NCBI GenBank assembly: GCA_023974075.1 | Contig: CM043791.1 | Location: 20,505,701 to 20,569,700 of the forward strand | Reading direction: 5' to 3' | From: Chaenocephalus aceratus | Lineage: Eukaryota > Chordata > Actinopteri > Perciformes > Channichthyidae | Length of the DNA stretch: 64,000 nucleotides | Shown here: one piece after another, positions 3,683 to 55,590 of the stretch | Position numbering within the stretch: position 1 is the stretch's first letter | Layout: each line of letters begins with the position of its first letter | Notes under the pieces: model-generated | What the model saw: the letters and a program-made list of their open reading frames with translations, nothing else | Databases searched by the model: none | What the model was told of the DNA's origin: nothing | Position numbers and translations under genes: made by a program

Positions 3683-9655
<5,973 letters not shown>

Positions 9656-25356: not shown

Positions 25357-25362
25357 AGGATC
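25357..25362. repeat. Left 6-bp target-site duplication (AGGATC)
   Basis: AGGATC directly precedes the first base of the inverted repeat. The same hexamer directly follows its last base at 36994-36999. Six-bp duplications are known for Polinton/Maverick-type elements among others. Confidence 0.8.
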
Positions 25363-25520
25363 AGTAGTAGTAATGATGTTCCTTTCGTCAAATTAGTATG
25401 CATAGAAAGTGACAGGTGGACACGCCCCCAATTATGCAAATGAGCTAAGTCCATCTCCCATTGGCCAATGAGCTAAGTCCCGCCTCCCATGTCCCGCCTC
25501 CCATGTCCCGCCTCCCATTC
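25363..25520 (+). promoter_or_regulatory. Left terminal control-like region: octamer, ATTGGCCAAT, GC-box repeats
   Basis: The octamer ATGCAAAT lies at 25434-25441, starting at base 72 of the element. The palindrome ATTGGCCAAT lies at 25460-25469. Three perfect tandem copies of GTCCCGCCTCCCAT follow at 25477-25518. The mirror end has the octamer at the same distance (base 72), the same palindrome and two 14-bp copies. Octamer, CCAAT-type and GC-box sites are classical host-factor sites in viral enhancers and in adenovirus-type origins; such use here is inferred. Confidence 0.6.
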
Positions 25521-25564
25521 TTTGATGTCAGATTGGCGTGAAAGGCCCCCCGGCGTGATTCTTT

Positions 25565-25975
25565 TGTTGTATCAATTAGATAGTTAAGGTATTTGACCCC
25601 TGACCCCGAGAGTGGAGTAATTGCCCCGCAATTAGATTAGCCCCAGGCACCCCCTTTGTGTATAGGTATTTTATTGTATCAATTAAGATAGTTAGGGTAT
25701 TTGACCCTGACCCCGAGAGTGGAGTAATTGCCCCGCAATTAGATTAGCCCCAGGCACCCCTTTGTGTATAGGTATTTTGTTGTATTGATTAAGGTATCTG
25801 ACCCTGACCCCGAGAGTGGAGTAATTGCCCCCGCAATTAGATTAGCCCCAGGCACCCCCTTTGTTGTATAGGTATTTTGTTGTATTGAATAAGGTATTTG
25901 ACCCCTGACCCCGAGAGTGGAGTAATTGCCCCGCAATTAGATTACCCCCAGGCAGTCCCTTTTGTTGTATGTATT
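25565..25975 (+). repeat. Left subterminal tandem repeats, about 105 bp, four copies
   Basis: The phrase CCCCGAGAGTGGAGTAATTG recurs near 25604, 25709, 25808 and 25910, each followed by GCAATTAGATTA. Each unit also carries TTTGACCC and a GTTGTAT block. Copies differ by small indels. Confidence 0.9.
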
Positions 25976-26084
25976 GTATAAGATAGTCTCTTTGACCCCT
26001 GCCCTCAGAGCCCTTTGTTGTCTAATCTAATTAGCCTTTGATGCCTGCCCTTTGATGTGATGTGTAATTTCACACTGATGAAAG

Positions 26085-26220
26085 CCTCTGTATAAAATGA
26101 CTAGGCTACGACCGTATAGAGATATGCTCAAAACTAAATTTAAAAAAGACAGACAATTCAGCTTACCAAGTCAAACCGTCTGAAGCGCCAGTCAAGAAAC
26201 AAATGCAGCATCGGGGGATG
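26085..26220 (+). promoter_or_regulatory. TATA-like box with short leader frame, left arm
   Basis: TATAAAATG at 26091-26099 sits just inside the 105-bp repeats. A short frame follows. The mirror copy is a 61-codon frame at 36173-36358 (minus). In it, GPVKKQMQH resembles GAPIKKGMQY of gene A, and the DNA CGCCAGTCAAGAAAC at about 26188 parallels CGCCAATCAAGAAAC at about 26623. This looks like a duplicated gene-A start fragment. Confidence 0.4.
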
Positions 26221-26300
26221 GGTTCGGAGTACAGCCTCTTTCTGGTCATGTGTGTTGGAGGAGGGGCTCTGTAAGGAAGTCTGAAGGAAAGGGGATATAT

Positions 26301-26315
26301 TCCCCCCCCCCCCCG
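26301..26315. repeat. Poly-C run, left arm
   Basis: A run of about 15 C. Its mirror partner is a poly-G run at about 36139-36156. The unequal length reflects homopolymer instability. Confidence 0.85.
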
Positions 26316-26566
26316 TTTGTGTACTTTCAAATTATAGCTCACTCGAGATGGTTTCTCCAAAATGACAGGTTTTGCATACATAAAAGTGTATCTTACAGTT
26401 CCTTTAGTTGTAGGATTGTGAACTAATGTATAATTACTTTTATTAACTATAGGTTTGCATCCATTAAAGTTTATCTTACAGTTCCCTTTGTGAGTGAATT
26501 ACACACAAATCTGCAGAGTGTCACTAATATATATATATATATATATATATTCTTTATTTAGAAGCA

Positions 26567-27353
26567 TAGATATGGGTTTAATCAGCGAGACGCCTGTGAC
26601 AACGTACAGCCATCAGTCCGGAGCGCCAATCAAGAAACGAATGCAATATCTGTGCCGGTTCAGACGCCTACAGCCGAAGAACTTCATGAAGAATGGACTC
26701 TGAAAAATGGCGATGTTTGGGGTTATGTATTCAACTATATGGCGAATGAACTGCATTTCTACAATCTGAAGAATGGAGAAACGTACGGACCCCGCAGTGG
26801 TAAAGCGACACTGACCTCAACAGATTGGGCTGTGTTAACTCTGTGTCTTCCAGAGATCTCCCACGCAACCACGGTACCGGAAGAAGTAGTGCATCAAGAA
26901 ACCATAGTGGAACCAGCGGTGTACAAGATTTTACAAAGAAAAGCAAAGAAACACAGACAGCATGCGAGATCAAAGAAGAGATTTTCACCGCCGCCCCCTC
27001 AATGTGGAGGAAGAAAGAGTTATTTCCCCACTGCCAGAAGTGAGAAGAGTCCTGACAAGCATCGTCTGGGAAACTAAAAGCGGACCATCGGGGCGATGGT
27101 ATTACCCGTGGCAAGCCATTTGGAAACTCTGGGGAAGGACCCTCTGATGATTTTGTTTTGGAGATTTTTAATTCTACATGTGGAGTATTTCAGGACAGCA
27201 GTGCGGGTGCCATTGACTGCTTGGCTGAAAATGATTGATGGAAAAGCTACAAAGCTTAAAGAACTTTTTAAACAGAGTCAGACATCGATGGACATTATAC
27301 TGGTGAAAAAGAATCTCACCTTTACAGAGGACTCTGCCTCCCACTCAACATAA
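26567..27353 (+). pseudogene. Gene A, left-arm copy, broken
   Basis: This is the mirror copy of the intact 266-codon frame at 34289-35089. The left copy has lost the start region: the first shared codons follow directly after a TA repeat and TCTTTATTTA, where the right arm has about 820 extra bases. Frame changes near 26660-26700, 26850-26950 and 27070-27120 split it into three overlapping frames (26494-26703, 26652-27077, 27096-27353). The central block and the C-terminal block remain recognisable. It is not expected to give a full protein. Confidence 0.85.
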
Positions 27354-27400
27354 CAAGTCACACCCTCCTCACCAGATCATTTTAAACTAAGGACCCCTCA
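27331..27400 (+). promoter_or_regulatory. Recurring promoter-like module M1, left arm
   Basis: The module reads CCCACTCAACATAACAAGTC, then CACCAGATCATTTTAAACTA, then AGGACC. It overlaps the end of gene A. Similar blocks occur at 28221-28290, 30000-30062 and, on the right arm in mirror sense, 31805-31870, 33361-33426, 34240-34308 and 35170-35240. The TTTTAAA/TATAAAA core is TATA-like. Confidence 0.5.
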
Positions 27401-28220
27401 AAGAAAAACATTGTGTATTCTACCTATGTAAAAAGAATGTCGGGGTTGTCTCTGTATCAAGAAGATGTGTTTTAAAAATGAATTTTGTGAAAAATACCAA
27501 CTGTGTGAGAGACGTCATAAAGACACTCATTTTAACCACAGTGTTTGTTCTCTACAAATGTTTTAAGATTGTTACAAAATGTAAAAAATAAAAATAAAAG
27601 GTATGGAGACAAAATTAATTCAGGTGACTCTGGCTTTATTAGGAATACAAATATAATACAAATGGGTTAGGGGTTAAATGTAACCATCGTGGACTTAATA
27701 GTCTAACAAAATACTTTTATCTGAATACATTTGTTCTTTTTAAGAGCACTTTTTGAAATGATTTATTTATTATTTCAGTGGAACAATCCAGTTTTTGTTA
27801 ACATCAACACTTTCTTCTTTTTTTTTCTTGTGTTACTATGATACTTTTAGACACACTTTGGTGTATGCAACACTTGTTCAGATAAACAAGGTTTTTTTCT
27901 TTTCTGATAAACTTACATATTTTAGTTATTTTCTGCTACCAAGATACTTTTTTCTTTAAGGGTTGCAAAACTTTAGAACAGGGTAAAATATTCATTAAAT
28001 TGTATTGAATTGAGTTTTCTTTTTTGATTTTCAACATACTATTTGTACACAATGACTTTTCCATATTTCTGACAAACTATAGTTTTTTGACTTTTTTCTG
28101 TATAATCTTGACAAAACTATTACTTGTTCTTAAATGATGATCTATTGCTGGAGATGAGATGAAAAGCTACAACGATTAAAGAACTTTTTTCTAAAAACTC
28201 TCAATTCTATAATTGACTAC
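27401..28220. other. Gene A to gene B intergenic stretch, left arm
   Basis: T-rich sequence between genes A and B, with AATAAA-type polyadenylation signals near 27589-27598. No domain-bearing frame is seen; short frames on either strand look incidental. The mirror copy is at about 33440-34235. Confidence 0.5.
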
Positions 28221-28307
28221 CCCCATTCAACGCAATAAGCCCTACCCTCCACTCAGCAAATCATCTAAAACGAAGGACCTCGCTAAGACGACCGTTGTAA
28301 TCTAGCC
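28221..28307 (+). promoter_or_regulatory. Recurring promoter-like module M2 upstream of gene B
   Basis: CATTCAACGCAATAAGCCCT, then CTCAGCAAATCATCTAAAAC and AAGGACC, followed after about 30 bp by CTAGCCATGGAGC with the gene B start codon. The same CTAGCCATGGA context recurs after module M3 at 30067. Confidence 0.55.
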
Positions 28308-28811
28308 ATGGAGCAGAGAAAAGCCAAGACTCCCCCCGCGAGTTGCAGCCAGGAACAGACTACTGGACTACCATCATCACCACCAAGGGGGAAACCCGAA
28401 TCTTGCAATACTACTGCTGCTGATTTTACTCCTTGGGCCAAAACGTCTCTGTTTATGGACACATTGAAAGCGGTGTTGGTTGATATTGTGGAGAGGGTGA
28501 TACATCGGTACAGAGAAGAAATATGCAACGGGTGCCGAGTCAGTCACCCCGGCCAGAGGCAACACGATTTTCTGAATGACATGTCCGATTTTTACTTCAG
28601 AAACAATTACAACGCGTTAATGAAAAGACTCTGGCTCACCGACTTCATTACTGAGATCGACCAGACTCTTAATGATAAAGACATTTTCACGGATGATTGG
28701 AGGATCCAAGGCGCTTCGGAGGCTTTTCTTCACAATCTCAAAAATTGCAGACGCCTCAAGGAGAGACTTGAAAAGATCCATGCCGAGTTGGATGGAGAAG
28801 AAGAAGACTAA
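28308..28811 (+). CDS. Gene B: 167-residue putative zinc-binding protein
   Basis: The ATG at 28308 sits in CTAGCCATGGAG, a good vertebrate initiation context, downstream of module M2. Residues 1-45 are polar and Pro/Ser-rich. Residues 47-70 form an amphipathic helix (LFMDTLKAVLVDIVERVIHR). Residues 73-86 contain CNGCRVSHPGQRQH, a possible CX2CX3HX5H metal site. The C-terminal part is helical and ends in an acidic tail (ELDGEEED). I do not recognise a named family with certainty. Such small helical zinc-binding proteins are common accessory proteins of DNA viruses and virus-like elements, which is only a general analogy. The right-arm copy is broken, so this is the only complete version in the window. 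Confidence 0.6.
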   Translation: MEQRKAKTPPASCSQEQTTGLPSSPPRGKPESCNTTAADFTPWAKTSLFMDTLKAVLVDIVERVIHRYREEICNGCRVSHPGQRQHDFLNDMSDFYFRNNYNALMKRLWLTDFITEIDQTLNDKDIFTDDWRIQGASEAFLHNLKNCRRLKERLEKIHAELDGEEED

Positions 28812-28882
28812 CAACCAGCAGTTGGATGGAGAAGCCAGGGACTTGTTCGATACATTGACTTTTTTCTTCAAGTAAAATAAAA

Positions 28883-29347
28883 ATGGGAAACTACTATGCA
28901 AAACGCTCTGTATATATTGATCATAATGTAGTCATTACCCGTTTAATAAGTGTGGTGATGGGGACGATTGAAAACAGAACGAGTAGGGACCCCTGTGTAA
29001 AAAGAATGGACGAAGTTTGTAAACTGGAAGACATTTTGGATATCGTTCGTTCTGGCAGTACTATTCCGGGTCATTGGGAAACGATTGTAAACGAAACATT
29101 TAAAGTGGTCCTGGAATCTTCATTTTCTGAAACATTCTGTAACATTATCTCAGAAATGAAACAAACATCAAAAGTGTATCATGTGCTCTCATTGTATGCT
29201 CTGTTTGTAGATGTAATGCATATGTGTGTTGAAAACAGCATACACGTGAATATTTTGACTGAAGTGAAAAAACTCCATCACGATATCTCCAGTAATATGC
29301 GGAATTCTAAGCTGGAGACTGTCCTGGGGATGCTACAATCAGTATAA
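28883..29347 (+). CDS. Gene C: 154-residue helical protein, possibly Bcl-2-like, left copy
   Basis: An intact frame starts 71 bp after gene B. It starts MGNYYA, with Gly2 and Ala6 compatible with N-myristoylation. The rest is predicted largely helical. Residues 84-118, with FCNIISEM, then KVYHVLSLYALFVDVMHMC, resemble the helix pair around the BH1 region of Bcl-2-type proteins, with a Tyr where Trp is usual; residues 46-60 could be a BH3-like helix. If correct it would be an apoptosis inhibitor, a gene type carried by several DNA viruses. The match is by eye and weak. The mirror copy (32512-32976) is also intact and differs by five residues, which suggests youth, purifying selection or gene conversion. 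Confidence 0.55.
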   Translation: MGNYYAKRSVYIDHNVVITRLISVVMGTIENRTSRDPCVKRMDEVCKLEDILDIVRSGSTIPGHWETIVNETFKVVLESSFSETFCNIISEMKQTSKVYHVLSLYALFVDVMHMCVENSIHVNILTEVKKLHHDISSNMRNSKLETVLGMLQSV

Positions 29348-29504
29348 CTATTGATTTTGTGTGTGAAAAAAAGAAAAAAAAAGTGGTTTTTACATCTAAA
29401 AACTGTTGTCATCATTATAGCAAGGGGAGCGTGTCTGATACATGTGTATTACAGTCCTTCTTGTTGTGTTTTTCAGTGTTTTTTTGTGTGTCTGTACACA
29501 CAAA

Positions 29505-29990
29505 GCACACTTCATTATCTACTTTTCAGCTTTTTTAAAAATAAAAGTGTATCTTTCTGTAACTTTCTCAGAGAATTTAAGCATAAATCTGTCAAATGTT
29601 CAAAACAGCCTTGTTTCACTGAAATACCCTCAAAATGACAAACTGCCATTAAGAGTCAGATTCTTAACCAAATCTACTGACACAAAGTACTTCATTATCT
29701 ACTTTTCAGCTTTTAAATACAAAAGTGTATCTTTCGGTAACCTTCTTGAGAGAATTAAGCATAAATCTGTCAAAGATTCTTAACGAAATCTACTGACACA
29801 AAGTACTTCATTATCTACTTTTCAGCTTTTATACACAAAGTGTATCTTTCAGTAACTTTACCAGAGAATTTAAGCATAAATATGTCAAATGTTCAAAACA
29901 GCCTTGTTTCACTGAAATACCCTCAAAATGACAAACTGCCATTAAGAGTCAGAATCCTAACGAAATCTCCTCAAACAGAGTACTTTCTAC
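29505..29990 (+). repeat. Left-arm 185-bp tandem repeats
   Basis: Three units, the middle one shortened, each with ACTTCATTATCTACTTTTCA, a GTGTATCTTTC block, AATTTAAGCATAAAT and CTGTTGACA-like or CTACTGACACAAAG joints. The AAAGTGTATCTT word also occurs at 26385, 26468 and 47441. Mirror copy at 31885-32365. The open frames across the units are repeat artefacts. Confidence 0.85.
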
Positions 29991-29999
29991 AGATGAAGC

Positions 30000-30129
30000 C
30001 TCCCACTCAACGCAATATGTCCCACCCACTCAGCAAATCATATAAAACTAAGGACGACCATTAAAAACTAGCCATGGATCTGAGAAAAACCAAGTCTGAT
30101 GTAGCCTGCCCCTTATTATCACCAGGATA
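30000..30129 (+). promoter_or_regulatory. Recurring promoter-like module M3 upstream of gene D
   Basis: CACTCAACGCAATATGTCCC, CTCAGCAAATCATATAAAAC and TAAGGACGACC, with a perfect TATAAAA. It is followed by CTAGCCATGGATCTGAG, whose 19-codon frame parallels the start of gene B (both read M-x-x-R-K-x-K), a truncated duplicate of that gene start. Confidence 0.55.
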
Positions 30130-30252
30130 ATGGATATGGGCTTAATGACTGGATGTTACAAAGTAGGGGAGAGGATGTTCCCGAAGAAGAGCTCTCCTCT
30201 ATATCATATCCATGTAAGGTCTTTAGGACAAAATGATAACATGATAACATGA
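30130..30252 (+). CDS. Short ORF overlapping gene D start, left arm
   Basis: A 40-codon frame from ATG 30130 beginning MDMGLM, similar to the internal MDMGLI of gene A. It ends at TGA 30250-30252, overlapping the ATG of gene D (30249) in an ATGA arrangement. The mirror copy is at 31616-31738 (minus). The overlap would allow termination-reinitiation coupling, or the pair may be remnants of one gene. No domain is recognisable. Confidence 0.4.
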   Translation: MDMGLMTGCYKVGERMFPKKSSPLYHIHVRSLGQNDNMIT

Positions 30253-30700
30253 CATATGAAGAATATCTTTCTTTGAAAGATGGTATTATAGATAACCTTT
30301 ATAGAAACAGTATATCTCATACCACTCGCCAAGATCGCAAACGACAATTAGCAGAAAAGAATAGAAAAAGTAAAGAAAAACGAAGAAAAATAAAAGCAAC
30401 ATGGAAAGGAGAAGAAAAATTAAAAGCAAACGCAGAATGCGAATGAAAAGAAAGGGACCATAGGACGGAAAACTAAAAAGATAAAAAGAAGGAAGGTGAA
30501 AAGAAAAAGAAACAAAGTGAAGAAATGTAAACTAGAGGATGCTGATGGTGTTGTAGAGCCATTACCGGATCATAATAATCGTATAGATCATCTCCCGCTA
30601 ACCGACTGCTGCGAATGTGTTGAACAAATACCAAAAGCAATGTCAAAAAACAGAGCATACAATGAAAGCACATGATACACTATAAATGTTTCGTTTACAA
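30249..30700 (+). pseudogene. Gene D, left-arm copy, frameshifted
   Basis: The same basic protein as the right-arm copy at 31188-31619. A run of four A here against five on the right (near 30393) shifts the frame, so the left frame stops at 30446 after 65 codons. A seven-base difference near 30605 adds a second break. The left copy therefore gives at most the N-terminal part. Confidence 0.75.
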
Positions 30701-30736
30701 TACTATTACTATATATGAAAGCAAACAAATAAAACA

Positions 30737-31136
30737 ATCCTATGCCAGGTATTCAACAGACCACAAGAAGCACAAGAAGCCCCAGAAAGGATTACATTCA
30801 GAGCTAATAATGGAGAAACCGAAGAAGAAGCAAAGCAGATTATAATCGTTGCGGGTGAAAGGATAGAGAATTTGCATGTGATGTTAATGCATTTATCTGA
30901 TATAAAAAATGCATTCGTATACTTCAAGAGACCCCTAAACATCTACTTGGGCTGTGTGAATTGAACGACAAACCGATCACTGTCAATGAAACGCAGAGAG
31001 AAGCAGCAGTGCAAATCGTTAAGTCTATTACCTTGTATGCACTACGACATTAACTTGGTAAAATGTAATATGTTTTCTATGAATTGTGTTGAATGTTGTG
31101 TTTTTTCAATTAAACAACCATTACAAAATGAAAATG
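30737..31136. other. Unique central spacer of the palindrome
   Basis: The 400 bases between the arms have no mirror partner. On the plus strand one frame (about 30720-30963) encodes a polar, Glu-rich stretch with GETEEEAKQIIIVAGERIEN. A shifted frame continues to about 31051 with VNETQREAAVQIVKSITLY. Together they look like the C-terminal part of one decayed gene of unknown family. The spacer marks the inversion joint and keeps sequence that the arms do not share. Confidence 0.6.
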
Positions 31137-31187
31137 TGTTTTATTTGTTTGCTTTCATATATAGTAATAGTATTGTAAACGAAACAT

Positions 31188-31619
31188 TTATAGTGTATCA
31201 TGTGCTTTCATTGTATGCTCTGTTTTTTGACATTGCTTTTGGTATTTGTTCAACACATTCGCGGTTAGCGGGAGATGATCTATACGATTATTATGATCCG
31301 GTAATGGCTCTACAACACCATCAGCATCCTCTAGTTTACATTTCTTCACTTTGTTTCTTTTTCTTTTCACCTTCCTTCTTTTTATCTTTTTAGTTTTCCG
31401 TCCTATGGTCCCTTTTCTTTTCATTCGCATTCTGCGTTTGCTTTTAATTTTTCTTCTCCTTTCCATGTTGCTTTTTATTTTTCTTCGTTTTTCTTTACTT
31501 TTTCTATTCTTTTCTGCTAATTGTCGTTTGCGATCTTGGCGAGTGGTATGAGATATACTGTTTCTATAAAGGTTATCTATAATACCATCTTTTAAAGAAA
31601 GATATTCTTCATATGTCAT
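31188..31619 (-). CDS. Gene D: 143-residue very basic protein, right copy
   Basis: An intact frame from ATG 31619, which overlaps the stop of a short upstream ORF. Residues 1-20 are mildly acidic (MTYEEYLSLKDGIIDNLYRN). Residues 28-94 are almost entirely Lys/Arg (for example KIKRRKVKRKRNKVKK), a composition seen in nucleic-acid-condensing or nucleolar proteins. Residues 95-115 are acidic (LEDADGVVEPLPDHNN). The last dozen codons run through DNA that is an antisense fragment of gene C, so the natural C-terminus may be replaced. A DNA-packaging or core-type role would suit a virus-like element but is inference from composition only. Confidence 0.5.
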   Translation of the reverse strand: MTYEEYLSLKDGIIDNLYRNSISHTTRQDRKRQLAEKNRKSKEKRRKIKSNMERRRKIKSKRRMRMKRKGTIGRKTKKIKRRKVKRKRNKVKKCKLEDADGVVEPLPDHNNRIDHLPLTANVLNKYQKQCQKTEHTMKAHDTL

Positions 31620-31738
31620 GTTATCATGTTATCATTTTGTCCTAAAGACCTTACATGGATATGATATAGAGGAGAGCTCTTCTTCGGGAACATCCTCTCC
31701 CCTACTTTGTAACATCCAGTCATTAAGCCCATATCCAT
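31616..31738 (-). CDS. Short ORF overlapping gene D start, right arm
   Basis: Mirror copy of the frame at 30130-30252, starting at ATG 31738. It again overlaps the gene D start codon by ATGA. Preservation of the overlap in both arms shows it predates their divergence. Confidence 0.4.
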   Translation of the reverse strand: MDMGLMTGCYKVGERMFPKKSSPLYHIHVRSLGQNDNMIT

Positions 31739-31804
31739 TATCCTGGTGATAATAAGGGGCAGGCTACATCAGACTTGGTTTTTCTCAGATCCATGGCTAG
31801 TTTT

Positions 31805-31870
31805 TAATGGTCGTCCTTAGTTTTATATGATTTGCTGAGTGGGTGGGACATATTGCGTTGAGTGGGAGGC
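31805..31870 (-). promoter_or_regulatory. Promoter-like module M3, right arm
   Basis: Mirror copy of 30000-30062 with TATATAAAAC-type core read on the minus strand, followed by CTAGCCATGGATC. Confidence 0.5.
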
Positions 31871-31884
31871 TTCATCTGTAGAAA

Positions 31885-32365
31885 GTACTCTGTTTGAGGA
31901 GATTTTGTTAGGATTCTGACTCTTAATGGCAGTTTGTCATTTTTCAGTGAAACAAGGCTGTTTTGAACATTTGACAGATGTATGCTTAAATTCTCTGGTA
32001 AAGTTACTGAAAGATACACTTTGTGTATAAAAGCTGAAAAGTAGATAATGAAGTACTTTGTGTCAGTAGATTTCGTTAAGAATCTTTGACAGATTTATGC
32101 TTAATTCTCTCAAGAAGGTTACCGAAAGATACACTTTTGTATTAAAAAGCTGAAAAGTAGATAATGAAGTACTTTGTGTCAGTAGATTTGGTTAAGAATC
32201 TGACTCTTAATGGCAGTTTGTCATTTTGAGGGTATTTCAGTGAAACAAGGCTGTTTTGAACATTTGACAGATTTATGCTTAAATTCTCTGAGAAAGTTAC
32301 AGAAAGATACACTTTTCTTTTTAAAAAAGCTGAAAAGTAGATAATGAAGTGTGCTTTGTGTGTAC
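31885..32365 (-). repeat. Right-arm 185-bp tandem repeats
   Basis: Mirror copy of 29505-29990, with three units and small indels. Confidence 0.85.
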
Positions 32366-32511
32366 AGACACACAGAAAACACTTAAAAACACAACAAGAA
32401 GGACTGTAATACACATGTATCAGACACGCTCCCCTTGCTATAATGATGACAACAGTTTTTAGATGTAAAAAAACACTTTTTTTTTCTTTTTTTCACACAC
32501 AAAATCAATAG

Positions 32512-32976
32512 TTATACTGATTGTAGCATCCCCAGGACAGTCTCCAGCTTAGAATTCCCCATATTACTGGAGATATCGTGATGGAGTTTTTTCACTTCAG
32601 TCAAAATATTCACGTGTATGCTGTTTTCAACACACAGATGCATTACATCTACAAACAGAGCATACAATGAGAGCACATGATACACTTTTGATGTTTGTTT
32701 CATTTCTGAGATAATGTTACAGAATGTTTCGGAAAATGAAGATTCCAGGACCACTTTAAATGTTTCGTTTACAATCGTTTCCCTATGACCCGGAATAGTA
32801 CTGCCAGAACGAACGATATCCAAAATGTCTTCCAGTTTACAAACTTCGGCCATTCTTTTTACACAGGGGTCCCTACTCGTTCTGTTTTCAATCGTCCCCA
32901 TCACCACACTTATTAAACGGGTAATGACTACATTATGATCAATATATACAGAGCATTTTGCATAGTAGTTTCCCAT
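32512..32976 (-). CDS. Gene C: 154-residue helical protein, possibly Bcl-2-like, right copy
   Basis: An intact mirror copy of 28883-29347. Length and MGNYYA start are the same. It differs at residues 8 (Arg to Cys), 43 (Asp to Ala), 65 (Trp to Arg), 114 (Met to Leu) and 140 (Arg to Gly), counted left to right arm. The BH1-like region at residues 84-118 is otherwise unchanged. It lies downstream of the broken gene B copy with the same spacing. Function as for the left copy is tentative. Confidence 0.55.
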   Translation of the reverse strand: MGNYYAKCSVYIDHNVVITRLISVVMGTIENRTSRDPCVKRMAEVCKLEDILDIVRSGSTIPGHRETIVNETFKVVLESSFSETFCNIISEMKQTSKVYHVLSLYALFVDVMHLCVENSIHVNILTEVKKLHHDISSNMGNSKLETVLGMLQSV

Positions 32977-32983
32977 TTTTATT

Positions 32984-33337
32984 TTACTTAAAGAAAAAAG
33001 TCAATGTATCGAACAAGTCCCTGGCTTCTCCATCCAACTGCTGGTTGTTAGTCTTCTTCTTCTCCATCCAACTCGGCATGGATCTTTTCAAGTCTCTCCT
33101 TGAGGCGTCTGCAATTTTTGAGATTGTGAAGAAAAGCCTCCGAAGCGCCTTGGATCCTCCAATCATCCGTGAAAATGTCTTTATCATTAAGAGTCTGGTC
33201 GATCTCAGTAATGAAGTCGGTGAGCCAAAGTCTTTTCATTAACGCGTTGTAATTGTTTCTGAAGTAAAAATGGTAGTCCAGTAGTCCAGTAGTCTGTTCC
33301 TGGCTGCAACTCGCGGGGGGAGTCTTCTCTGCTCCAT
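32984..33337 (-). pseudogene. Gene B, right-arm copy, deleted
   Basis: The start ATG at 33337 and the last 63 codons (33048-33239) are kept, the latter identical in protein to the left copy. A 7-base deletion near the start shifts the frame, and about 0.2 kb is lost between a duplicated GTAGTCCA block and the TTTTTACTTC region. The region encoding the CNGC/H zinc-like motif is gone. Confidence 0.85.
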
Positions 33338-34239
33338 GGCTAGTTTACAACGGTCGTCTTAGCGAGGTCCTTCGTTTTAGATGATTTGCTGAGTGGAGGG
33401 TAGGGCTTATTGCGTTGAATGGGGGTAGTCAATTATAGAATTGAGAGTTTTTAGAAAAAAGTTCTTTAAGCGTTGTAGATTTTTCATCTCATCTCCAGCA
33501 ATAGATCATCATTTAAGAACAAGTAATAGTTTTGTCAAGATTATACAGAAAAAAGTCAAAAAACTATAGTTTGTCAGAAATATGGAAAAGTCATTGTGTA
33601 CAAATAGTATGTTGAAAATCAAAAAAGAAAACTCAATTCAATACAATTTAATGAATATTTTACCCTGTTCTAAAGTTTTGCACCCCTTAAAGAAAAAAGT
33701 ATCTTGGTAGCAGAAAATAACTAAAATATGTAAGTTTATCAGAAAAAGAAAAACCTTGTTTATCTGAACAAGTGTTGCATACACCAAAGTGTGTCTAAAA
33801 GTATCATAGTAACACAAGAAAAAAAAGAAGAAAGCGTTGATGTTAACAAAAACTGGATTGTTCCACTGAAATAATAAATAAATAATTTCAAAAAGTGCTC
33901 TTAAAAAGAACAAATGTATTCAGATAAAGTATTTTGTTAGACTATTAAGTCCACGATGGTTACATTTAACCCCTAACCCATTTGTATTATATGTTTGTTT
34001 TCCTAATAAAGCCAGTCACCTGAATTAATTTTGTCTCCATACCTTTTATTTTTATTTTTTACATTTTGTAACAATCTTAAAACATTTGTAGAGAACAAAC
34101 ACTGTGGTTAAAATGAGTGTCTTTATGACGTCTCTCACACAGTTGGTATTTTTCACAAAATTCATTTTTAAACACATCTTCTTGATACAGAGACAACCCC
34201 GACATTCTTTTTACATAGGTAGAATACACAATGTTTTTC
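33338..34239. other. Gene A to gene B intergenic stretch, right arm
   Basis: Mirror copy of about 27401-28307, including module M2 at 33361-33426. A-rich on this strand. No domain-bearing gene; the 91-codon minus frame at 33638-33913 is interrupted in the other arm and has no recognised family. Confidence 0.5.
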
Positions 34240-34288
34240 TTTGAGGGGTCCTTAGTTTAAAATGATCTGGTGAGGAGGGTGTGACTTG

Positions 34289-35089
34289 TTATGTTGAGTG
34301 GGAGGCAGAGTCCTCTGTAAAGGTGAGATTCTTTTTCACCAGTATAATGTCCATCGATGTCTGACTCTGTTTAAAAAGTTCTTTAAGCTTTGTAGCTTTT
34401 CCATCAATCATTTTCAGCCAAGCAGTCAATGGCACCCGCACTGCTGTCTGAAATACTCCACATATAGAATTAAAAATCTCCAAAACAAAATCATCAGAGG
34501 GGTCCTTCCCCAGCGTTTCCAAATGGCTTGCACGGTAATACCATCGCCCCGATGGTCCGCTTTTAGTTTCCCAGACGGTGCTTGTCAGGACTCTTCTCAC
34601 TTCTGGCAGCGGGGAAATAACTCTTTCTTCCTCCACATTGAGGGGCGGCGGTGAAATCTCTTCTTTGATCTCGCATGCTGTCTGTGTTTCTTTGCTTTTC
34701 TTTGCAAATATCTTGTACACCGCTGGTTCCACTATGGTTTCTTGATGCACTACTTCTTCCGGTACCGTGGTTGCGTGGAGATCTCTGGAAGACACCAGAG
34801 TTAACACAGCCCAATCTGTTGAGGTCAGTGTCGCTTTAACACTGCGGGGTCCGTACGTTTCTCCATTCTTCAGTTTGTAGAAATGCAGTTCATTTGCCAT
34901 ATAGTTGAATACATAACCCCAAACATCGCCATTTTTCAGAGTCCATTCTTCATGAAGTTCTTCGGCTGGAGGCGTCTGAACCCGGCACATATATTGCATT
35001 CCTTTCTTGATTGGCGCTCCGGACTGATGGCTGTACGTTGTCACAGGCGTCTCGCTGATTAAACCCATATCTATGCTTCTCTTGGCCAT
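34289..35089 (-). CDS. Gene A: 266-residue protein with a PC4-like segment
   Basis: An intact frame from ATG 35089. The N-terminus is basic (MAKRS). Residues 48-98 contain WTLKNGDVWGYVFNYM and then FYKLKNGETYGP with KATLTSTDWAVL. The latter resembles the beta-strand, turn and helix of PC4/Sub1-type single-stranded-DNA-binding coactivators. Residues 100-180 are a low-complexity, Glu- and Pro-rich linker. The C-terminal part (180-250) is helical with VPLTAWLKMIDGKATKLKEL. A PC4-like protein would fit replication or late transcription of a DNA element. The match is by eye. The left-arm copy is broken, so this is the only full-length version. Confidence 0.55.
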   Translation of the reverse strand: MAKRSIDMGLISETPVTTYSHQSGAPIKKGMQYMCRVQTPPAEELHEEWTLKNGDVWGYVFNYMANELHFYKLKNGETYGPRSVKATLTSTDWAVLTLVSSRDLHATTVPEEVVHQETIVEPAVYKIFAKKSKETQTACEIKEEISPPPLNVEEERVISPLPEVRRVLTSTVWETKSGPSGRWYYRASHLETLGKDPSDDFVLEIFNSICGVFQTAVRVPLTAWLKMIDGKATKLKELFKQSQTSMDIILVKKNLTFTEDSASHST

Positions 35090-35169
35090 TTTTCTTTTTT
35101 GAAAAGTGCCTTGGTGATTGGAAATGACTGGCCTGTTATTTAGTTTGAGCGTATTTATTTTCGTCTATT

Positions 35170-35240
35170 TCCATCCCCTCACTTTTAAATGATCTGGTGA
35201 GGAGGGCGGGACATGTTATGTTGAGTGGAGGTGGAGCCCT
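35170..35240 (-). promoter_or_regulatory. Promoter-like module M0 upstream of gene A, right arm only
   Basis: Read on the minus strand: CCACTCAACATAACATGTCC, CGCCCTCCTCACCAGATCAT and TTAAAAGTGAGG. It lies about 80-150 bp before the gene A start. The left arm lacks it because its 5' region is missing, so the left gene A copy has also lost its presumed promoter. Confidence 0.5.
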
Positions 35241-35389
35241 TGTACAAGCTGGAGGCTTCATGGAGTGAAATGGAGCAGAAACACACATTCTTTATGGGTA
35301 TTATCCCAGTGTTCTAAATCTGCCTACCTTCCCTGCACTTTTGTGTATAAAAGCTGAAAAAGGTAGATAATGAAGTACTTTGTTTTAGT

Positions 35390-35598
35390 AGATTTCATTA
35401 ACCCCCTGAGGCAGTCCAAAAACTAAGAATCTGTCTATTAACCCACCATCCCCCGAGAGCCATAACATACTCAACTCCCTACATGAAGTACTTTGTTTTA
35501 GTAGATTTCGTTAACCCCTGAGGCAGTCCAAAAACTAAGAATCTGTCTCTTAACCCACCATCCCCCGAGAGCCATAACATACTCAACTCCCTACAGCA
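35390..35598. repeat. Two-copy tandem duplication, about 110 bp, right arm
   Basis: GAAGTACTTTGTTTTAGTAG to CATACTCAACTCCCTAC occurs twice (about 35368-35486 and 35485-35597). The start of each unit is related to the 185-bp repeats near the centre of the arm. Confidence 0.85.
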
Positions 35599-35604
35599 GC
35601 TCGG

Positions 35605-35906
35605 GTGTGAACTCCCGTACAGAATGTCAGTCACTGCGTAACACTTTTTTAGTTTTGGTCGATGTGAGTGCTCGTATATCCTGAAATCGTTTTAAATGTT
35701 GCCATCTTTTGAATGATTTTAATAGTTTGTTTTACTTCGCATATTGACTGGCTAATGTGCCATTTTATTTGTGTTTTACATCTGTATTTGTCTGCCTTTC
35801 ATGTCTGTGTTTTATATGTTGTAACTTTGTACATGCTGCCCTTCTTGGCCAGGTCACTCTTGGAAAAGAGATTTTAATCTCAATGAGTTTTTTTACCTGG
35901 TTAAAT
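35605..35906 (+). repeat. LINE 3' end (CR1/Rex1-like) inside the right arm
   Basis: GGCCAGGTCACTCTTGGAAA, GATTTTAATCTCAATGAG and ACCTGGTTAAATAAAG form a retroposon tail of the same type as at 55530-55590. It ends at the TA repeat shared with the left arm. The left arm keeps only TCTTTATTTA of it, so the retroposon was apparently present before the left arm lost this section. Confidence 0.6.
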
Positions 35907-35907
35907 A

Positions 35908-35930
35908 AAGAATATATATATATATATATT
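35908..35930. repeat. (TA)n tract, right arm
   Basis: About ten TA units; the mirror tract is 26527-26551. Confidence 0.9.
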
Positions 35931-36172
35931 AGTGACACTGCAGATTTGTGTGTAATTCACTCACAAAGGAACTGTAAGATACACTTTAATGGATACAAAC
36001 CTATAGTTAATAAAAGTAATTATACATTAGTTCACAATCCTACAACTAAAGGAGCTGTAAGATACACTTTTTATGTATGCAAAACCTGTCATTTTGGAGA
36101 AAACCATCTCGAGTGAGCTATAATTTGAAAGTACACAAACGGGGGGGGGGGGGGGAATATATCCCCTTTCCT

Positions 36173-36358
36173 TCAGACTTCCTTACATAGCCCCTCCTCC
36201 AACACACATGACCAGAAAGAGGCTGTACTCTGAACCCATCCCCGATGCTGCATTTGTTTCTTGACTGGCCCTTCAGACGGTTGACTTGGTAAGCTGAATT
36301 GTCTGTCTTTTTTCAATTTAGTTTTGAGCATATCTCTATACGGTCGTAGCCTAGTCAT
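36173..36358 (-). CDS. 61-codon frame near the right end, uncertain
   Basis: Mirror of the leader region at 26097-26220; only the right copy is open to 61 codons. The first ATG overlaps a TATA-like box (TATAAATG), so translation, if any, would start at an internal Met. Basic N-terminal half, then the GPVKKQMQ block similar to gene A residues 24-32. Probably a fragment of a duplicated gene-A start and not a functional gene. Confidence 0.3.
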   Translation of the reverse strand: MTRLRPYRDMLKTKLKKDRQFSLPSQPSEGPVKKQMQHRGWVQSTASFWSCVLEEGLCKEV

Positions 36359-36474
36359 TTATACAGAGGCTTTCATCAGTGTGAAATTACACATCACATC
36401 AAAGGGCAGGCATCAAAGGCTAATTAGATTAGACAACAAAGGGCTCTGAGGGGCAGGGGTCAAAGAGACTATCT

Positions 36475-36812
36475 TATTCAATACATCAAAAGACCTATAC
36501 AACAAAAGGGACCGCCTGGGGGTAATCTAATTGCGGGGCAATTACTCCACTCTCGGGGTCAGGGGTCAAATACCTTATTCAATACAACAAAAGACCTATA
36601 CACAAAGGGGGTGCCTGGGGCTAATCTAATTGCGGGGCAATTACTCCACTCTCGGGGTCAGGGGTGAAATACCTTAACTATCTTAATTGATACAATAAAA
36701 GACCTATACACAAAGGGGGTGCCTGGGGCTAATCTAATTGCAGGGCAATTACTCCACTCTCGGGGTCATGGGTCAAATACCTTAACTATCTTAATTGATA
36801 CAACAAAAGAAT
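36475..36812 (-). repeat. Right subterminal 105-bp tandem repeats, three copies
   Basis: CAATTACTCCACTCTCGGGG recurs three times (near 36540, 36640 and 36745). The left arm has four copies, so array length changed after the arms formed. Confidence 0.9.
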
Positions 36813-36849
36813 TACGCCGGGGGGGCTTTCACGCCAATCTGACATCAAA

Positions 36850-36993
36850 GAATGGGAGGCGGGACATGGGAGGCGGGACTTAGCCCATTGGCCAATGGGA
36901 GACGGACTTAGCTAATTTGCATAATTGGGGGCGTGTCCACCTGTCACTTTCTATGCATACTAATTTTACGAAAGGAACATCATTACTACTACT
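36850..36993 (-). promoter_or_regulatory. Right terminal control-like region
   Basis: Two perfect ATGGGAGGCGGGAC copies (36852-36879), ATTGGCCAAT at 36887-36896 and ATTTGCAT at 36915-36922 (octamer at base 72 from the end). It mirrors 25363-25520. Confidence 0.6.
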
Positions 36994-36999
36994 AGGATC
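36994..36999. repeat. Right 6-bp target-site duplication (AGGATC)
   Basis: Exact copy of 25357-25362, directly after the terminal CATTACTACTACT. Confidence 0.8.
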
Positions 37000-47384: not shown

Positions 47385-47450
47385 CATGCGAAATCTACTA
47401 AAACAAAGTATGTCATGGTGGTCAGCTGTTAAACACAAAAGTGTATCTTA
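47385..47450 (+). repeat. Fragment related to the palindromic element's repeats
   Basis: AAATCTACTAAAACAAAGTA followed by GTCAGCTGTTAAACACAAAA and GTGTATCTTA parallels repeats of the palindromic element (for example 35385-35410 on the minus strand and 29790-29850). It suggests a second, mostly lost copy of that element here. Confidence 0.4.
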
Positions 47451-49462: not shown

Positions 49463-49569
49463 CTTCTTCTTCTTCTTCTTCTTCTTCTTCTTCTTCTTCT
49501 TCTTCTTCTTCTTCTTCTTCTTCTTCTTCTTCTTCTTCTTCTTCTTCTTCTTCTTCTTCTTCTTCTTCT
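49463..49569. repeat. (TTC)n microsatellite
   Basis: About 35 TTC units within the MITE. The poly-Glu, poly-Lys, poly-Arg and poly-Phe frames are artefacts. Confidence 0.97.
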
Positions 49570-54055: not shown

Positions 54056-55590
54056 GTGCTGATGTAGAAACGGCATGGTCTTATTTTTATCTTGGTGTTA
54101 TGGAGATCATTGATAGACATGCACCCCTGCGTAAATTTAGAGTAAAGGGATGAGACAATCCTTGGTTTCTGCTGAACTGTCTAGTCTCCTGCATGAGAGA
54201 AACAAGACTAGGAAATCAGGCTCAGAGGGTAGAATGGCTGCGTTTTAGGCAGCTAAGGAATAGCTTCACTTCAAATGTCAAAAGTGCAAAGTCGAAGTAC
54301 TATTTGTCAGTTACCACAGAAAACCTAAATAATCCTAGGAAATGTTGGAAAGCCATAAAATCGATATCCACCGGTGAGACCCGTAATGAGCTACCTCCGT
54401 GCCTTACCACAGCATCTGGCACTATATCGGACAGGGCCACTATTATGCTAAATTGCTTTTTGTTCTATGTTTGATTCTGTGACTAACTCTGCTGCTGTGA
54501 ACACCCCAATCCCTGACTCTGAACAATGTGGTCTAGAAAACCCTTTCAGTTTTACTCCTTTTACTGTCAGTGTTGTTCATGAAGCCTTATCTAAGCTAGA
54601 TCCTAAGAAACCAGCTGGCCCGGACAACGTAGAACCTTTCTTTTTAAAGATAGCTGCAGATTGTATTGCTCTTCCTCTTACTACTCTTTTTAACCTCTCC
54701 CTCAGCACAAATGCAATTCCAAAAGTATGGAAGTCAGCTTATGTCTTGCCTTTGCTAAAAGGAGGGGAGGCAACTATTTTAAATAACTATAGGCCAATCT
54801 CAAAATTGTCAGTTCTGGCGAAGGTGCTCGAACGCCTAGTGAGTGAACAGATAAAGGAGTTTTTATGTAAAAAATGATATCCTGTCTAAACATCAGTCAG
54901 GCTTCAGAAAGCAACATAGCACCATCACTGCGACAATGAAAGTGGTGAATGACATTACGAATATTTGAGATAATAAGCAGAGTTGTGCAGCTCTGTTTAT
55001 TGACCTTTCCAAAGCGTTTGACACCGTTGATCATCACATTTTGAAGCAGAGGCTACTCAGTATTGGCATATCCAGCCATGCAGTGGGGTGGTTTGTGAAC
55101 TACCTCTCTGAAAGGTCACAATGTGTTCATTTTGATGGGCTTGTCTTCTGAGTGGTTAAACATTGCTAATGGTGTTCCTCAAGGTTCTGTTTTAGGTCCA
55201 CTTTTATTCTCTATATATACAGTATCAACAGTTTAGATCTCATGATGTTGTTTTATTAAATGTGCCAAGTGCTAGGACTGTCTTAAGGAAGAAAGCTTTT
55301 AGTTGTGCAGCTCCACTAAATTGGAACAGTCTGCAAACATGTTTAAAACTGAGCACAAGTTTTTGGTTCCCCTGCATCATTTTAAAACTCGGCTGGGTGA
55401 CATGCTGTTTGATACTCATGGTACCTGTCACTGTAAATAGAGTTTGTAAACTGTACCCTGTACATTATGTTGTATGTCATCCTTATTGTTGTTCTGTTGT
55501 TTTTATGTTACATGTGTAACTAATGTCCTGCAGGTCACCCTTGAAAAATAGATCTTTTGATCTCAAGGGCTTTCACCTGGTTAAATAAGG
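54056..55590 (+). pseudogene. CR1/Rex1-like LINE, reverse transcriptase, broken and deleted
   Basis: Starts mid-protein with AWSYFYLGVMEIIDRHAPLR, the end of the endonuclease-to-RT linker. Frames at 54193-54474 and 54467-54877 contain RFRQLRNSFTSNVKSAKSKY and KPAGPDNVEPFFLK with YRPISKLSVLAKVLER. A third segment has ALFIDLSKAFDTVDHHIL (about 54990-55045) and a GVPQGS block (about 55170-55190). The catalytic FADD segment is missing by internal deletion. The 3' tail carries GCAGGTCACCCTTGAAAAAT and CACCTGGTTAAATAAGG. Exact subfamily uncertain. Confidence 0.85.

Follow-up and report, generated by a model that had tools for sequence, protein, structure and literature searches.

Vertebrate Mavericks (Polintons) are recognized by (AGT)2...(ACT)2 ends and 6-bp duplications; in the same description, intact copies measure 12.7-24.6 kb, have terminal repeats of 46-1,447 bp, and contain the core genes (PMC8097293). 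They encode a protein-primed polymerase (PMC11071308) and are said to resemble endogenous viruses, although Maverick particles had not been observed (PMC8097293). Here we describe an element from a 64,000-nucleotide stretch of the Chaenocephalus aceratus genome (the window; contig CM043791.1 of assembly GCA_023974075.1) that has Maverick ends and a Maverick-type duplication and is built as an 11.6-kb palindrome. We consider it probably a palindromic, non-autonomous derivative of a fish Maverick, in which the integration ends and a few accessory genes are present twice, in mirror image, and for which a replication cycle can be proposed from the comparisons below. All observations concern the assembled sequence of a single genome assembly. 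A literature search with little coverage of subscription journals returned no paper on palindromic Mavericks, and we know of no direct study of Maverick replication.

Structure and classification of the window element

The element consists of two arms of 5.4-5.9 kb in inverted orientation. The left arm (25363-30736, + strand, 5,374 bp) starts with AGTAGTAGTAATGATGTTCC, the right arm (31137-36993, − strand, 5,857 bp) ends in ACTACTACT, and a single-copy spacer of 400 bp (30737-31136) lies between them; a short open piece within the spacer (30746-30961) had no match in Pfam or PHROGs. The hexamer AGGATC abuts the first mirrored base (25357-25362) and again the last (36994-36999), and the chance of an exact 6-mer match at two fixed places is about 1 in 4,096. 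A first-pass annotation of the window had already described arms of 5.4 and 5.9 kb, a 400-bp spacer, and outer AGGATC hexamers within 25357-36999, and its coordinates were borne out. Its description of the palindrome as near-perfect calls for some qualification. Substitutions between the arms number 73 in 4,888 aligned bases, or 70 in 4,963 in a recount that omits the poorly aligned part of gene B at 28320-28581 (1.4-1.5%). There are also larger differences: about 0.83 kb (35081-35911) is present in the right arm only, about 207 bp from 28374 in the left arm only, and the terminal tandem repeats (units of about 105-110 bp; left arm 25561-25980, mirror at about 36450-36810) are not identical between arms. 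Element-type repeats occur within the right-arm segment, whose outer end also holds a short stretch shared with 55531-55588. Of 40 gaps between the arms, 27 involve 1-2 bp of a single base, and 21 of these fall in runs of at least three, where about 26% of bases lie; because such homopolymer gaps are many, part of the arm differences may be long-read sequencing errors.

The outer ends, AGTAGTAGT at 25363 and ACTACTACT ending at 36993, are of the (AGT)2...(ACT)2 type, and the duplication has the expected 6 bp. In its (AGT)n...(ACT)n ends, 6-bp duplication, terminal inverted repeats, and accessory genes outside the core modules, the element thus resembles vertebrate Mavericks (adintovirus-like elements) as portrayed in PMC8097293. 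It differs from the Mavericks of that account in its total length of 11.6 kb, in repeats of 5.4-5.9 kb that occupy nearly all of it, and in having no recognized core gene. Pfam was scanned with 16 distinct reading frames, including genes A to D and the spacer piece. No integrase or protein-primed polymerase domain was found among them, nor any match to a capsid, protease, or packaging ATPase, although very divergent genes could escape such a scan; the best E value was 0.012 and none was above its family cut-off. Because no Maverick core gene was recognized, we have filed the element as a putative non-autonomous Maverick derivative rather than a full Maverick.

The first-pass annotation had held that a foldback of this kind fits no common fish transposon class. 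That view must be given up, since the ends together with the 6-bp duplication are the published vertebrate Maverick signature, and it is further contradicted by the rest of the genome. The polymerase family PF03175 gave 134 match rows in the same genome, with several rows to a gene, whereas 14 control genomes yielded no match. A 15.5-kb element, C1:38849986, contains an integrase frame (rve, E 9.2e-13) and a polymerase match within its bounds, is flanked by the duplication CCCAGT, and closes with the same 20-bp end as the window family. These observations bear equally on the possibility that the element is a different long-inverted-repeat DNA transposon, of the Foldback or Galileo type and unrelated to Mavericks. 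In favour of that possibility, Galileo and Foldback elements have been described as having inverted repeats that are very long and repetitive within; the duplication, the (AGT)n/(ACT)n ends, and the end shared with an element that has integrase and polymerase matches are Maverick features instead, and we regard this as the least probable of the explanations considered.

One asymmetric centre at eight insertion sites

A genome search with gene C, one of the arm-borne genes described below, placed 24 of its best 40 matches in 12 inverted pairs, the pair of the window element included; the 952 candidates from which these 40 were scored are only a hint of copy number. Six of the pairs have a common spacing of about 4.16 kb. 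These six young copies have their centres on five contigs. Over about 1.16 kb the centres are 99.7-100% identical to one another, and the copies share spacers of 697-699 bp, the arm edges of the C15 palindrome, and mirrored outer pieces; their duplications are TAGGCA, TGCGTG, GCAATG, ACCGTG, CACAGA, and CAGCTG. C15 itself has a spacer of 696 bp, mirrored pieces, and the duplication GGCCTA. Its arm edges are also those of C21, a palindrome with a spacer of 697 bp and the duplication GGGGAA, whose arms were read over at least 5.7 kb and are 99.74% identical there. One asymmetric centre, with a spacer of 696-699 bp and identical arm edges, is therefore common to eight insertions at eight sites, each with a different duplication. 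C24 has this centre too, and the rearranged centre of C6 retains its side segment at 93%; both are left out of the eight.

The asymmetry of the shared centre means that the palindrome must predate the eight integrations. A competing explanation is that each palindrome was made in place: a Maverick-type insertion would be followed by break repair that copies one end region into the other via the inverted terminal repeats. Independent events of this kind should have produced centres that differ, so that eight insertions with eight different perfect duplications and one centre count against it. Since separate in-place events would not yield a single shared centre, the comparison supports integration of the family already in palindromic form, the first of two options that the first-pass annotation had proposed for the window element. 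The proposal of a mobile, virus-like DNA that integrates as a palindrome thus holds up for the family, and for the window copy it would follow by extension from its relatives.

Family members in the genome

The end region of the element is multi-copy in the genome, with 116 matches among the best 40 of 663 candidates scored. The exact 20-bp end pattern was matched at 55 places and its backward-read control at none; 34 of the 55 form 17 inward-facing pairs, and the other 21 are unpaired. Inverted arms were present at a depth of at least 3.3 kb in 12 of the 17 pairs. Nine of these have perfect duplications (the window element, two on C13, and one each on C16, C23:17117711, C46, C211, C333, and C859); the remaining three are C4 and C6, in which 5 of 6 bases agree, and C24, in which the duplication is absent. 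For C6, the two on C13, C16, C23:17117711, C24, C211, C333, and C859, the comparison was of mirrored pieces, with matches of 0.36-1.2 kb. Across all 17 pairs, 14 have perfect 6-bp duplications. Together, the nine end pairs and the eight shared-centre copies make 17 long-armed elements whose duplications are perfect and mutually different.

Two of the pairs, C17:7002603-7012552 and C859:85496-97019, share flanks and duplication and are two versions of one insertion; they differ by about 1.6 kb, and an arm of the shorter version is apparently no longer complete, part of it having been lost. Additional members with perfect duplications were located with a 398-bp query: C5:9284090 and C7:34663778, with short repeats, and two with longer ones, C1:28202255 (about 2 kb) and C3:36772447 (about 3 kb). 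The family includes members with terminal repeats of about 0.9 to 3 kb and members that are near-complete palindromes. Single-arm copies, for which the first-pass annotation had advised a search, do exist: elements with one gene set and short repeats are present at other sites.

Likeness of the two arms

In the six young copies, left and right outer pieces differ by 3, 5, 3, 10, 4, and 0 mismatches (gaps excluded), and the lowest counts against any other copy (left pieces) are 6, 12, 10, 9, 7, and 6, so that mismatch within the copy is smaller than mismatch between copies in five of six. The outer end of C9, for which alignment to the other young copies covers 580-652 bases only, is unlike that of the other five and yet identical on both of its own sides. 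The arm likeness in five of six copies, together with C9's own matching ends, suggests that one arm may template both arms in each cycle, and points to a putative hairpin replication on helper Mavericks. The genes behind the PF03175 matches and the 15.5-kb element C1:38849986 are possible helpers for the family, to which they would supply enzymes in trans. The arms of C15, C21, and C6 (21.99 Mb) contain a short polymerase piece (221-aa frame) in outward-facing pairs, about 10 kb apart.

Observations that weigh against palindromic integration

A number of observations run counter to this reconstruction, for the family, for the window copy, or for the copying of arms. Five of the 17 end pairs (C1:38849986, C10:694841, C17:2325405, C17:7002603, and C23:3043685) are non-palindromic at the depth tested, and no mirrored part was found in 1.6 kb at the midpoint of C13 (17.5 Mb), C211, C333, or C859. 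The C24 palindrome (27344400-27357400) extends for at least 428 bp into its flanks, where 428 of 428 bases are mirrored; either the assembly is folded here or the locus has undergone a genuine inverted duplication. On account of these mirrored flanks, C24 was left out of the clean counts.

A mirror image that takes in the flanks is what would be expected if the palindromes were false, created during library preparation or assembly by fold-back chimeric reads, and the frequent homopolymer gaps in the window arms point the same way. The 6-bp flanks, however, are direct rather than mirrored in 16 of 17 end pairs (14 perfect, 2 with 5 of 6 bases), and six centres on five contigs agree. For the window copy itself, the large indels that separate the arms and the direct repetition of its outer flanks make a simple fold-back read artefact unlikely. 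Overall, we judge an artefact of assembly or library very improbable.

The centre of the window copy is a variant. Its spacer sequence is also present in the centres of the C6 (21.99 Mb), C15, C21, and C24 palindromes, and a portion that starts at 30855 is shared with C7:34663778, a 9.6-kb element that is not palindromic. The window centre is without the 202-bp segment that adjoins the spacer in C15, C21, and C24, its arms reach 94 bp further inward than theirs, and its exact centre junction was not seen in the other centres read. As this exact centre was found in none of the other centres read, we infer the integration of the window copy as a palindrome from its family, and some later in-place remodelling of its centre is likely. 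To such late remodelling the second option of the first-pass annotation, a DNA that turned palindromic but kept its original ends, may still apply.

The divergence between the window arms is also uneven, the outer part being more divergent than the inner (41/1691 as compared to 29/3272), with a change point at 27177 that was equalled in strength by 0 of 1,000 shuffles. This step fits older ends with a later-copied inside. We abandoned it as proof of in-place copying once other elements had been measured: the first 500 bp are the most divergent part in seven of eight, the exception being C3, in which the inside is more divergent (12/1294 as compared to 6/1232). Outer and inner divergence are about equal in C46 (12/1473 and 30/4069) and C4 (15/1449 and 23/2969), which counts against conversion in place. 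In favour of conversion are the older-looking outer part of the window element, its arms extending 94 bp further inward to where another segment sits in C15, C21, and C24, and the occurrence in one family of both terminal repeats of about 0.9-3 kb and near-complete palindromes. With the shared centre set against these, an in-place origin appears unlikely, and integration of a ready-made palindrome remains the reading that we prefer.

Regarding arm likeness, C8 breaks the rule that mismatch is lower within than between copies, and the gaps excluded from the counts number 32 in C8 and 25 in C1. Gene conversion from arm to arm after insertion could also keep arms alike and is the main alternative to their joint copying.

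Genes and surroundings

Gene A (266 aa) is intact in the right arm (34289-35089, − strand); its left-arm copy is broken, with an open part at 26562-27074 and the first codons missing. Relatives were found in environmental sequence, and there was no match in Pfam. A KETQT motif, which we take to be reminiscent of dynein light chain (LC8) binding motifs, is kept in four of five aligned rows of these relatives. Gene B (167 aa) is located in the left arm (28308-28811, + strand), and its four detected relatives include one in the icefish Champsocephalus esox. The right-arm copy lacks the 207 bp or so mentioned above; at 33240-33300 the loss is joined by short repeated filler of CTACTGGA-like units, and the joint has the look of error-prone end joining. 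Gene C (154 aa) is present in both arms (28883-29347, + strand; 32512-32976, − strand). Its copies have six differences, and because only one of the six is at a third codon position, the gene shows no sign of apparent selection between arms since they parted. A deleted, inverted fragment of gene C stands just outside the spacer on both sides (30648-30701 and 31172-31225), perhaps the scar of an earlier fold-back. Gene D, strongly basic and of 143 aa, lies in the right arm (31188-31619, − strand); its left copy has two 1-bp gaps relative to the right. A short module recurs upstream of the element's genes: the example ahead of gene B (28222-28279, + strand) has relatives at 27340-27395 and 30002-30055, and the right arm mirrors them.

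Scans of viral contigs with gene A, gene B, the gene C alignment, and the gene B alignment gave no relative. PDB sequence searches with genes C and A gave matches only at E 0.3 or worse, and a PHROGs search none better than E 0.05; structure models of genes A and C had mean confidences of 34 and 42, too low for use. Gene A as a PC4-type protein and gene C as a BCL2-type protein were considered, and no support was found for either. A 16-bp end pattern matched 46 viral contigs, matches that were judged to be chance because none aligned to the left arm and spacer or to the protein queries. No match was obtained with a 26-bp end pattern in prokaryote genomes or with a 32-bp tandem-repeat pattern in viral contigs.

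Other repeats near the element belong to types that are common in fish. They comprise a Sleeping Beauty/Tc1-type frame (21017), a Ty3-type gag (52524) next to a protease, and two weak matches to reverse transcriptase. Short tandem repeats form long runs at 960-1110, 3685-3833, and 49463-49569, the first and last being similar to each other and inverted. A stretch of about 60 bp outside the element (47389-47450) is about 76% like its internal repeat.

A proposed cycle and its significance

The cycle that we propose begins with linear Maverick DNA, which the Maverick's own protein-primed polymerase would copy. If the template were switched, or a fold-back occurred, on a fragment from one end, the product would carry that end on both of its sides. 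The displaced strand of such a palindrome could fold into one long hairpin, whose duplex end would resemble a normal end; a helper polymerase could start there and copy the molecule again. Copying by way of a hairpin would keep the arms alike, and both ends would change together. A helper integrase would then insert the molecule through its two identical ends, and the copy would decay once inserted.

Parts of this cycle have counterparts elsewhere. A deletion derivative of the kalilo linear plasmid reportedly forms hairpin as well as duplex DNA, going by the title of a 1992 paper by Vierula and Bertrand; that plasmid differs from the window element in being mitochondrial. Defective adenovirus genomes with mirror-image ends are another case in which the end of a protein-primed linear genome is duplicated head to head, but they are not known to be integrated or to have spread as a chromosomal family. 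Kalilo-like linear plasmids use protein-primed polymerases (PMC11071308). In the poxvirus mpox, terminal repeats have been described to expand by duplication of a stretch from one end of the genome to the other, accompanied by a deletion at the insertion site (PMC10230479). The repeats reported there, up to 24.6 kb, belong to a large viral genome, whereas those of the window element nearly meet at the centre and belong to an integrating element.

We offer, tentatively and with doubt slightly outweighing confidence, a broader proposal: that a Maverick satellite could live stably as a palindrome, its self-complementary genome being replicated from one end as a hairpin by helper Maverick enzymes, with both arms and both ends rewritten in each cycle; in that form it would have spread through a vertebrate genome and come to outnumber its single-arm relatives. 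Palindromic copies with like arms may record the copying of linear DNA just before integration, akin to the paired long terminal repeats (LTRs) of retroviruses, and shared centres allow palindromic lineages to be counted and dated. They also raise the question of whether defective or satellite genomes live on, and perhaps restrain, the full-size Mavericks of fish.

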